Shown piece after piece: positions 47,186 to 49,715 of a stretch of DNA of 64,000 bases (position 1 is the first letter of the stretch; each line of letters opens with the position of its first letter). The DNA lies in NCBI RefSeq assembly GCF_001695835.1, contig NZ_MBSO01000073.1, positions 1-64,000 on the forward strand, read 5' to 3'. Position numbers and translations under genes: made by a program. The notes under the pieces were generated by a model that worked only from the letters and a program-made list of their open reading frames with translations, did no database searches and was not told the origin of the DNA. The DNA comes from Ensifer sp. LC11. Lineage in GTDB: Bacteria > Pseudomonadota > Alphaproteobacteria > Rhizobiales > Rhizobiaceae.

Positions 47186-48490
47186 ATGATGAGAAAGAAC
47201 CTGCTCCCGGTCGCCGCCCTCCTGCTCGGCACGCTGTTTCTCTTTCTGGGCAATGGTCTTCAGGGGCTTCTTCTTCCCGTGCGCGGCACCGCTGAAGGTT
47301 ATCCGACCACCATCCTCGGCCTGATCGGCACATCCTGGGCGGCGGGCTTCGTTCTCGGCTGCTTCTTTGCCCCCAACGTCGTCAAGCGCATCGGCCATGT
47401 GCGGGCCTTCAGCGTTTTCGCTGCGCTCATCGCCATCGTCGCGCTGACGACCGGTATCCTGATCGATTCCACCTGGTGGCTGATCCTGCGGGCGCTGACC
47501 GGCTTTGCCACCGCCGGCACCTCGATGATCATCGAAAGCTGGCTGAACGAGCGCGCCACCAATGAAAGCCGCGGGGTGATCTTCTCGCTCTATATCGCCA
47601 TCACCCTCTTTGGCGTCGTCGGCGGCCAGATGATGATCCCCTTCGGCGATACGTCGACCAGCTTCTTCTTCATGATCTGCGGCATCCTCTATTGTGTCGC
47701 GATGCTGCCGACCTTGATGTCGAAGGCCGCCTCGCCGCAGCCGTTGAAGAAGGTCAGTCTCGATTTGCGCGGCCTCTACCGGAACTCGCCGGTTTCCTTC
47801 CTCGGCATCCTGCTGGTCGGTATCGCCAACGGCGCCTTCGGCACGCTCGGCGCGGTCTTCGGCCGGCAGGCCGGGCTTTCCGACAGCACCGTTGCGGCAA
47901 TGATGAGCGTGGCGATCTTCGCCGGCGCGGTCATGCAGCTCCCCGCCGGCCGCCTCTCCGACCGTATCGACCGACGTTACGTACTGGCAGCCCTTGCCGG
48001 CATTGGCGCCTTGGCCGGGCTGCTGATCTTCCTCATCGAGCCGAGCCAGGTCTGGATCGTGCTGACGCTGATCGCAATCTACGGCGCTGCCGCCAACGCG
48101 CTCTATCCGATCGCCGTTTCGCACGCCAACGACTTCGCGACCGCCGAGGACTTCGTCAAAGTCTCCGGTGGCCTGCTGCTGCTCTACGGCATCGGCACCA
48201 TTATCGGCCCGACCATCGGCGGCCCGGTCATGACCGCGGCCGGCCCCTACGGTCTGTTCATGATCACCGCCTGCGCCCATATTCTGATCACGGCCTATGC
48301 CATCATCCGCAGCCGGGTGCGCGCGCCTGTGCCGGTTTCCGACCGCGATGCCTTCTCGCCCGTCAACGCCGGCACGCCGACGACGCCGGAAAGCCTGCAG
48401 CTTTCGCCACGCGCGGCCCCATTTGAAGAGGCCCGCAACGAGCCGGACAAGCGTCCGGAATGGGAGGATCAGTCCGATGAGCCTATTTGA
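47186..48490 (+). CDS. MFS transporter, YcaD-like
   Basis: A 12-helix transporter of 434 residues. VKRIGHVRAFSVFAALIAIVAL and ESWLNERATNESRGVIFSLY are typical of the YcaD-like group, whose substrates are poorly known. The C-terminal 60 residues are hydrophilic (RAPVPVSDRDAF). The last codons overlap the start of the DUF1192 gene, so the two are coupled. Confidence 0.88.
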   Translation: MMRKNLLPVAALLLGTLFLFLGNGLQGLLLPVRGTAEGYPTTILGLIGTSWAAGFVLGCFFAPNVVKRIGHVRAFSVFAALIAIVALTTGILIDSTWWLILRALTGFATAGTSMIIESWLNERATNESRGVIFSLYIAITLFGVVGGQMMIPFGDTSTSFFFMICGILYCVAMLPTLMSKAASPQPLKKVSLDLRGLYRNSPVSFLGILLVGIANGAFGTLGAVFGRQAGLSDSTVAAMMSVAIFAGAVMQLPAGRLSDRIDRRYVLAALAGIGALAGLLIFLIEPSQVWIVLTLIAIYGAAANALYPIAVSHANDFATAEDFVKVSGGLLLLYGIGTIIGPTIGGPVMTAAGPYGLFMITACAHILITAYAIIRSRVRAPVPVSDRDAFSPVNAGTPTTPESLQLSPRAAPFEEARNEPDKRPEWEDQSDEPI

Positions 48491-48665
48491 CGACGATCGG
48501 CCACAGAAGAAGGTGGCCCACGAAATCGGCAGTGACCTCGCGCTCCTGTCAGTCGACGAGTTGACACAACGCATCGCCCTTCTGACGGACGAAATCGCCC
48601 GGCTGGAAGCCGAACGGACACGCAAGTCCGCAAGCCGCTCGGCTGCGGAAAACCTGTTTCGCTAA
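48477..48665 (+). CDS. DUF1192-family small protein
   Basis: A 62-residue helical protein beginning MSLFDDDRPQKKVAHEIGSDL, then LLSVDELTQRIALLTDEIARLEAE, the DUF1192 pattern found across alphaproteobacteria. It overlaps the MFS stop and has GGGAGG upstream. The acidic N-terminus and helical C-terminus suggest a coiled coil. Function unknown. Confidence 0.9.
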   Translation: MSLFDDDRPQKKVAHEIGSDLALLSVDELTQRIALLTDEIARLEAERTRKSASRSAAENLFR

Positions 48666-48709
48666 GGCGCCTCAGGCAGCGGTCCGCGCGGAGCAAGACA
48701 GGGCGCGCT

Positions 48710-48724
48710 TAACGGCACATTAAG
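48710..48724. promoter_or_regulatory. CtrA box 1, TTAACGGCACATTAA
   Basis: An exact TTAA-N7-TTAA match to the CtrA full site, 45 bases past the DUF1192 stop and 297 bases before rcdA. A terminator lies between it and rcdA, so it may control something other than rcdA. Confidence 0.7.
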
Positions 48725-48732
48725 CATTATCT

Positions 48733-48848
48733 GCGATTGTCAGGGCATCCGGAGCTTTCCGGGCTCAGACAATTTCTCCGACTGGCGAATGGGTCTGATT
48801 TTTCTCCCTGTTTTACCTTGAGAGCCGCTTTTCGCGGCTCTTTTTTTG
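48733..48848 (+). ncRNA. Candidate small RNA upstream of rcdA
   Basis: The interval has no frame but follows a CtrA box. It contains a dyad ATTGTC/GACAAT around a GC-rich core (about 48738-48774) and then a pyrimidine-rich single-stranded stretch (TTCTCCCTGTTTTAC, about 48802). It ends at an intrinsic terminator. This is the layout of a trans-acting small RNA of about 100 bases with anti-ribosome-site character. The 5' end is not determined; it could instead be the 3' UTR of the DUF1192 message. Confidence 0.45.
48821..48848 (+). terminator. Intrinsic terminator before rcdA
   Basis: AGAGCCGC (48821-48828) and GCGGCTCT (48834-48841) form a perfect 8-bp stem with a 5-base loop, followed by seven or eight T. 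It is 155 bases past the DUF1192 stop. Confidence 0.92.
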
Positions 48849-48882
48849 TTTTGGCATAGGTTTCTCTAAAGAACTGTGGAGA

Positions 48883-48924
48883 TTAACCCTTTCTTAAGAA
48901 TGCCCTTGCGCGAAATGCGCTATC
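48883..48924 (+). promoter_or_regulatory. rcdA: CtrA box 2 and likely rcdA promoter
   Basis: A second exact TTAA-N7-TTAA (48883-48897, TTAACCCTTTCTTAA), with GCTATC at 48919-48924 in the position of a -10 (alphaproteobacterial GCTA type). The box would cover the -35, the usual place for CtrA activation. The rcdA ATG follows about 95 bases later. Confidence 0.72.
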
Positions 48925-49020
48925 GGATCATTCTTCAAGCATAGAGACGGCAAGGATTTATTTCCCATAACCGTCCGCTACCTGACTGTCGTGATGCGTT
49001 TGAACCAGGGAAAACAGGTC

Positions 49021-49539
49021 ATGTCCGAGAGAGGATTGAATACGGTCAGTTTCGCAGGACACGCAGCGTCCTCGGCACAATTCAAGACACTCTATTCGGA
49101 AGGCATGGGTCTGGTCGAGGAAACGGCGACCTATCTCGATGGCGCCGGCCGCGCTGCTTCGAAGGTTCTTCCGCGCATGGCATCTGTTCTTTATGCTGCC
49201 GAATCCATGCGGCTCACCACCCGCCTGATGCAGATGGCCTCGTGGCTGCTGCTGCAGCGCGCCGTCAACAACGGCGAGATGAGTCGCGACCAGGTGATGT
49301 CGGAAAAGAGCAAGGTGCGCCTCGACAGCTTCAACGTCGACAAGGCCGCTCCCGGCTGGGCCGAGCTGCCGGAATCCTTCCGCGATCTGATCGAGCGCTC
49401 ACTGCGCCTGCAGAACCGCGTCGCCCTGCTCGACCGCGAAATCTATCGCCCGCACGAAGCCGCCGCGATCGTTCCGGACAACCAGAACGGCGTCAAGGCG
49501 CAGATCAAGCTGCTGCAGACGGCCTTCGGGACGAATTGA
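49021..49539 (+). CDS. rcdA: RcdA, regulator of CtrA degradation (DUF1465)
   Basis: RcdA is an adaptor that, with CpdR and PopA in Caulobacter, delivers CtrA to ClpXP. The 172 residues match the RcdA family pattern: EGMGLVEETATYLDGAGR and ESMRLTTRLMQMASWLLLQRAV are close to Caulobacter RcdA as I recall it. The ATG at 49021 has AGG nearby; another ATG is at 48991. Two CtrA boxes upstream suggest feedback: CtrA controlling its own destruction factor. Confidence 0.88.
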   Translation: MSERGLNTVSFAGHAASSAQFKTLYSEGMGLVEETATYLDGAGRAASKVLPRMASVLYAAESMRLTTRLMQMASWLLLQRAVNNGEMSRDQVMSEKSKVRLDSFNVDKAAPGWAELPESFRDLIERSLRLQNRVALLDREIYRPHEAAAIVPDNQNGVKAQIKLLQTAFGTN

Positions 49540-49570
49540 TCGGGCACCTGCCCGCTGACTAAGACAAGAA

Positions 49571-49594
49571 ACCCGGCCATCGCCGGGTTTTTTG
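49571..49594 (+). terminator. Terminator after rcdA
   Basis: ACCCGGC and GCCGGGT (49571-49577 and 49582-49588) with six T following. It lies 32 bases after the stop. Confidence 0.9.
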
Positions 49595-49663
49595 TTGTCC
49601 GTTTCTTTCATGCTTTTGTCGCAGCCGCCCCCCCCTACCCCGAGACATCCGCGACCGCACGGC

Positions 49664-49690
49664 AACAAAAAAGCCCGGCAGAGCCGGGCT
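49664..49690 (-). terminator. Terminator after rpmE
   Basis: AGCCCGGC (49672-49679) pairs with GCCGGGCT (49683-49690), loop AGA; on the minus strand it is followed by TTTTTTG. It ends the rpmE transcript 25 bases past its stop. Confidence 0.9.
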
Positions 49691-49715
49691 TCGAGTATTC
49701 TGAAGAAGCAGTCGA

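Follow-up and report, generated by a model that had tools for sequence, protein, structure and literature searches.

A predicted small RNA gene between two CtrA-type boxes upstream of rcdA in Ensifer sp. LC11

We wanted to know what two CtrA-type boxes regulate when both of them lie in a single gap upstream of rcdA, which encodes an adaptor in the proteolysis of CtrA. The gap is part of a 64-kb stretch of DNA from Ensifer sp. LC11, to which we refer as the window. The original prediction assigned both boxes to rcdA and saw in them a loop in which CtrA drives its own clearance. We propose, with a probability of about 0.85, that the gap holds two transcription units, each with a CtrA-type box: a small RNA (sRNA) with box 1 and rcdA with box 2.

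The boxes and their neighbours

The two genes and the two boxes are located as follows.

48477-48665, plus strand: DUF1192 gene, 62 aa, the upstream neighbour (Pfam PF06698, 84.8 bits)
48709-48723, plus strand: box 1, TTAACGGCACATTAA, exact motif, putative CtrA-type box of the sRNA promoter
48883-48897, plus strand: box 2, TTAACCCTTTCTTAA, exact motif, putative CtrA-type box of rcdA
49021-49539, plus strand: rcdA, 172 aa, CtrA-proteolysis adaptor (Pfam DUF1465, 199.2 bits)

The gene downstream of the boxes had been called rcdA, and its product indeed carries the DUF1465 domain and resembles Caulobacter RcdA; the single solved relative found for it was RcdA (3ctw, E 5.5e-31). The interval between rcdA and rpmE (49569-49692) contains several terminator-like hairpins.

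Both exact TTAA-N7-TTAA boxes were present, although box 1 lies one base to the left of the place first given for it (48710-48724). They are the sole exact matches in the window, for which shuffling gave an expectation of 0.03, and none of 100 shuffles of the window produced two exact boxes. The gap between the DUF1192 gene and rcdA has 355 bp and 51% GC. Dinucleotide shuffles of this gap contained at least one box in 27 of 5000 cases and two boxes in none, which agrees with the earlier view that such a pair is unlikely by chance. In the whole genome (6.2 Mb) there were 40 exact boxes and 31 matches to reversed-pattern controls, i.e. the motif was 1.3 times commoner. Since the exact pattern is not rare genome-wide, a single box is little proof; motif counts alone are weak evidence, and the reality of the boxes is decided by comparison between species. 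In that comparison TTAA-N7-TTAA was conserved in a manner that indicates selection, for box 1 as well as for box 2. This supports the view that both are CtrA-type boxes, with CtrA as the presumed factor on each of them in this genome. Another pair of exact boxes, 64 bp apart, was seen on the same contig outside the window (G000:C73:159335-159413).

CtrA sites at rcdA, predicted or bound, are described in passages of four papers (PMC2877005, PMC3616915, PMC4433202, PMC10469942), which together also give rcdA as essential in S. meliloti. According to the relevant passages of PMC4433202, CtrA activates rcdA in Caulobacter, and ChIP-seq in S. meliloti found CtrA bound at rcdA. In Hyphomonas rcdA is described as lying outside CtrA regulation (PMC7200025). 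Box 2 belongs to the same kind as the sites published for Caulobacter, S. meliloti and agrobacteria; the passages on these sites neither separate two boxes nor mention an intervening sRNA.

A small RNA gene between the boxes

Comparison of sequences places an sRNA gene between the two boxes and in the neighbourhood of rcdA, which the original prediction had overlooked. Its predicted parts are listed below.

48736-48741, plus strand: -10-like element of the sRNA, ATTGTC, position deduced from the columns of 92 aligned promoters
48743-48847, plus strand: sRNA gene of about 100 nt, counterpart of RF02356 BjrC1505 / SmelC671 by sequence comparison
48749-48762, plus strand: stem-loop 1 of the sRNA, predicted fold
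48804-48811, plus strand: unpaired stretch CTCCCTGT, likely pairing seed by its conservation
48820-48847, plus strand: predicted intrinsic terminator of the sRNA, a 9-bp stem followed by a T run

Two stem-loops, of which the second is variable, the unpaired stretch and the terminator make up the sRNA. The terminator is strong and lies 97 nt after box 1 and about 180 nt before rcdA. A majority of the rcdA loci that we scanned had the same terminator stem, and terminator and upstream box recur together in front of rcdA across the order. The stretch CTCCCTGT was invariant in all 30 aligned sequences and was found in 151 of 166 distinct loci. A first stem of 5 bp with varied pairs could be drawn for 154 of these 166 sequences, compared with 29% of shuffles. 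RNAalifold detected no compensatory pairs in the 30-sequence alignment and returned the terminator as the only consensus structure, partly because the first stems were poorly aligned.

In a sensitive scan against Rfam, RF02356 aligned over its full length to 48702-48847, at a score of 26.2 bits. The cut-off of the family is 50 bits, therefore we treat the window copy as a divergent counterpart and not as an Rfam-grade member. It agrees with the family in its place before rcdA and in the CUCCCUGU stretch followed by a terminal hairpin, and by sequence it is the positional counterpart of BjrC1505 from Bradyrhizobium. The two share the place before rcdA, the terminator and the CCUCCCUGU stretch, but the middle stem-loop differs, and the window copy scores below the cut-off, as do many close relatives. 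The Rfam lines seen for RF02356 contain no link to CtrA. Our own model, R1, gave 94.7 bits for the window copy and 21 bits for the next match in the genome; R1 was built from 30 sequences that included the window's own (L033), and these were picked from loci in which both the box and the terminator could be recognised, which is a selection bias. The RF02356 model itself spans the position of the box, whereas R1 begins after it.

The window sRNA is very probably the counterpart of S. meliloti SmelC671. The RNAs described in parts of the literature as SmelC671, Sm84 and ReC71 (S. meliloti, R. etli) are likewise 100 nt long and encoded on the plus strand, with an unpaired CUCCCUGU and a 3' terminator; the window copy has the unpaired CUCCCUGU between hairpins, the terminator and a length of about 100 nt. 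Passages on SmelC671 report a transcript of 100 nt, for which a Northern blot is cited (PMC2873474), the CUCCCUGU stretch, a terminator and relatives in several families (PMC3927594, PMC2873474). A review table gives expression in nodule zone II and lists no promoter motif for it (PMC7143759). The sole coordinate that we compared was the distance from 6S RNA to the sRNA, which is 14.2 kb in strain 1021, 12.8 kb in Ak57 and 14.6 kb in the window. Of all Rfam families, only 6S RNA (RF00013; 33958-34115, minus strand, 80.7 bits) exceeded its cut-off in the window. The 3.7-Mb S. meliloti record CP090106.1, titled pSymB, contains tkt, gap, rpmE and rcdA and appears to be the chromosome.

Two other identities were rejected. 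RF00519 (mmgR) reached 23.6 bits against a cut-off of 41. EcpR1 has its locus elsewhere, between divK-pleD and rpmG. Both EcpR1 and GspR (SmelC775), S. meliloti cell-cycle sRNAs described in parts of PMC7143759 as acting on dnaA/gcrA and ctrA, come from loci other than that of the window sRNA.

Further, we searched for RcdA and RF02356 in samples of 121 genomes of the family and 101 genomes of the order; here and in all other counts related genomes are non-independent observations. An RcdA match was present in 119/121 family-sample and 92/101 order-sample genomes. RF02356 matched at E 0.01 in 104/121 and 86/101, and over the 50-bit cut-off in 64/121 and 70/101, respectively. Nearly all of these matches lay on the same strand as rcdA and at most 1.5 kb upstream of it (100/105 in the family, 83/88 in the order). 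There was no RF02356 match in 14 control genomes, with Caulobacter vibrioides on the control list. Of 20 selected rcdA loci, 14 had a match to the family above the cut-off; the six others were five Rhizobiaceae, including the window's genome, and one locus of another family (L089). Genomes with rcdA and unmatched RF02356 numbered 15 of 119 in the family sample and 8 of 92 in the order sample, the window's genome being in both. When R1 was applied to the gaps of six such genomes (L165-L170), it matched weakly in three of them (L165, L168 and L169) and had no match in the other three (L166, L167 and L170).

In a class sample, RF02356 matched at E 0.001 in 29 of 241 genomes, with 13 over the cut-off. 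We examined 27 of the 31 places concerned; the four set aside were two in same-order genomes, a second copy in G373 and a place that had no locus. Within 100 bases around the model start, the box was exact in 9 of the 27 and matched 7/8 in a further 15, and rcdA was downstream in 14. The evidence from the whole class is weaker, since a 7/8 box somewhere in 100 bases is not rare.

Assignment of the boxes

The position of box 1 relative to the sRNA was determined in loci from L033 on, of which 212 had a match longer than 80 nt and 166 were distinct. A box lying 15-26 nt from the sRNA match had all 8 bases in 97/166 loci and at least 7 of 8 in 145/166. The exact boxes clustered sharply by distance: most of them (67) stood at 20 nt, with a further 23 at 19 nt and 3 at 21 nt. 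The background further upstream was 0.03% per position for exact boxes and 0.23% for at least 7/8. Inside the family 67 of 89 loci had an exact box and 81 a box of at least 7/8; outside it the numbers were 30 and 64 of 77. The 7-base spacer of box 1 varies among loci while the distance to the sRNA stays fixed. No box of at least 7/8 was found in 21 of the 166 loci, among them the Rhizobiaceae L044, L046, L056 and L057, and some of the 21 are weak and probably false RNA matches.

We observed the same arrangement where the sRNA was located away from rcdA. This was the case in five genomes (G027, G116, G107, G014 and G126), in which the sRNA was on another contig, far off, or 4.6 kb from rcdA. 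All five relocated copies (L151-L155) had an exact box 1 at 20 nt, and in the four Rhizobiaceae among these genomes rcdA retained an exact box of its own. In G134, which had no RcdA match, both sRNA copies (L156, L157) had an exact box at 20 nt. The exceptions were the G161 copy (L158), with a 7/8 box at another distance only, and the extra G200 copy (L159) and the doubtful L160, neither of which had such a box. As far as sequences can tell, the two boxes are inherited separately, and the fixed spacing between box and RNA identifies box 1 as the presumed promoter site of the sRNA.

Many relatives have a -10-like TTTACT or ATTACT 13-18 nt after box 1, to which the ATTGTC of the window is a weak match. 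The column frequencies of the aligned promoters revealed no further conserved -35 before the sRNA. Phosphorylated CtrA on box 1, at about -38 to -24, would most likely activate the sRNA promoter, because the box replaces the -35 before a weak -10. Repression of the sRNA by CtrA through box 1 would also fit a box that overlaps the promoter region, since sequence by itself does not tell activation from repression; however, the location of the box in the -35 place before a poor -10, with no other -35 conserved, makes repression unlikely. A box in this place before a poor -10 is the layout of activated promoters.

Box 2 was counted in 136 loci in which RcdA could be placed. Where RcdA was at least 70% identical, all 34 loci had an exact box between the sRNA and rcdA; of the 102 other loci, 36 had one, namely 32/39 Rhizobiaceae and 4/63 of other families. 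Thus the assignment of box 2 to rcdA holds, as the box is exact in all close loci and stays with rcdA after departure of the sRNA. Loss of both boxes from relatives that keep rcdA had been named as evidence against the prediction; box 2 was not lost in the family, and outside it was mostly absent. The further proposal, a GCTATC promoter with its -35 under box 2, was not supported, as the commonest base reached just 46-70% in those columns. Alignment of 30 Rhizobiaceae sequences showed other conserved elements around box 2.

48875-48879, plus strand: TGTGG, 93-96% per column in the 30 Rhizobiaceae sequences
48905-48934, plus strand: likely rcdA core promoter by column conservation, with CTTGCG at 48905-48910, an 18-bp spacer and CATTCT at 48929-48934

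The CTTGCG was conserved at 96-100% per column and CAT..T at 93-96% at four fixed columns. Therefore the core promoter of rcdA is probably at 48905-48934, and since CTTGCG is conserved and GCTATC is not, box 2 would lie just upstream of the likely -35. Conservation of the TGTGG, which immediately precedes box 2, equals that of the core promoter; the element resembles part of the DnaA box consensus.

We considered whether both boxes regulate rcdA, the transcript from box 1 being a long rcdA leader with an attenuator. Both boxes are upstream of rcdA, CtrA activates rcdA in Caulobacter (PMC4433202, in part), and a transcript beginning about 275 nt ahead of the ATG is within the 300-nt mRNA limit described in the S. 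meliloti start map (PMC3616915, in part). However, box 1 is fixed to the sRNA and leaves rcdA together with it while rcdA retains box 2, on which ground we rejected this explanation as quite improbable. Box 1 with the sRNA also extends past the group that has box 2, and SmelC671 is described as a separate 100-nt transcript in the passages seen of PMC2873474. Moreover, the part of PMC4433202 on CtrA depletion in S. meliloti reports rcdA expression without significant change. A loop in which CtrA drives its own clearance is thus known in so far as CtrA activates rcdA in Caulobacter, but in its form with both boxes it has, by this depletion result, already been tried in a close relative with no visible effect on rcdA. 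The genome-wide excess over reversed controls, 1.3-fold, would fit boxes that arose by chance because the gap is richer in A+T. We regard this as practically negligible, as no gap shuffle contained two boxes, and in most of the 166 loci the half-sites of box 1 are kept in a fixed place while the spacer changes.

Proposed regulation of the sRNA and rcdA

Returning to two transcription units, one per box, we infer where transcription starts, in which direction CtrA acts and what the sRNA targets as follows. With box 1 at its promoter, the sRNA would probably be controlled directly by the CtrA cell-cycle switch. The transcript would end at the 48820-48847 terminator, before rcdA. Most likely it would act in trans, with the unpaired CUCCCUGU directed at the ribosome-binding sites of mRNAs. 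Box 2 would tune rcdA from its place immediately before the core promoter of that gene.

Control of the sRNA by CtrA would explain why CtrA is found at rcdA in S. meliloti with rcdA unchanged upon depletion, as described in parts of PMC4433202, although the published ChIP summit could lie on box 2 alone. The start map for S. meliloti, in the passage concerned, demands that an sRNA start lie more than 300 nt before a gene on the same strand (PMC3616915); therefore the predicted sRNA start, about 275 nt ahead of rcdA, would be assigned to the rcdA mRNA. In agrobacteria, each of the three rcdA orthologues has several transcription starts according to a passage of PMC10469942, which is what two promoters would give. 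In the openly accessible main texts searched, we found no link between CtrA and the RF02356/SmelC671 RNA: PMC3927594 mentions neither CtrA nor rcdA, and the main text of PMC4433202 mentions no sRNA, small RNA or non-coding RNA. CtrA depletion strains exist for S. meliloti (PMC4433202, in part).

One candidate target is rcdA itself.

49006-49018, plus strand: rcdA ribosome-binding region, CAGGGA + AAAACAGG, complementary to the sRNA seed region

The energy of the sRNA-rcdA duplex ranked 6 of 341 crude gene starts. CAGGGA was near the start in 20/30 rcdA genes of at least 70% identity, compared with 7/341 background genes, and in 4/28 more distant rcdA genes. The pairing is a hint only, since the windows were unequal (120 bases for background, 90 for rcdA) and the starts were guessed. 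Accessibility of the seed was moderate, with a median of 0.70 unpaired and 0.68 in the window. These values are suggestive only and make rcdA a possible target of the sRNA in Rhizobiaceae. We keep rcdA targeting for the boldest reading, because CAGGGA fails in most of the distant genomes. According to that reading, which we find doubtful, the sRNA would be a core and ancient member of the CtrA regulon in Alphaproteobacteria outside Caulobacter, made late in the cycle, and its CUCCCUGU would block ribosome-binding sites including that of rcdA in Rhizobiaceae. CtrA would then raise rcdA transcription via box 2 and delay RcdA synthesis via the sRNA. Such a feed-forward timer, instead of a plain negative loop, would protect CtrA until G1-S.

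A comparable RNA is CcnA of Caulobacter, described in parts of PMC8959179 as presumably activated by CtrA and modulating the CtrA circuit. CcnA differs in its length (182 nt) and its location at the replication origin, and it is set apart from our sRNA by this description and by the 0/14 result for RF02356 in control genomes.

In summary, CtrA sites and CtrA binding at rcdA were known before, and the present comparison ties box 1 to an sRNA. If the proposed assignment is true, CtrA would directly control a widespread family of sRNAs to which the literature examined assigns no function. CtrA control in rhizobia and their relatives would thereby gain a level of RNA regulation beyond the Caulobacter model, as the RF02356 family was not found in Caulobacter. 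CtrA sites that at least some surveys have filed under rcdA may then partly belong to the sRNA.
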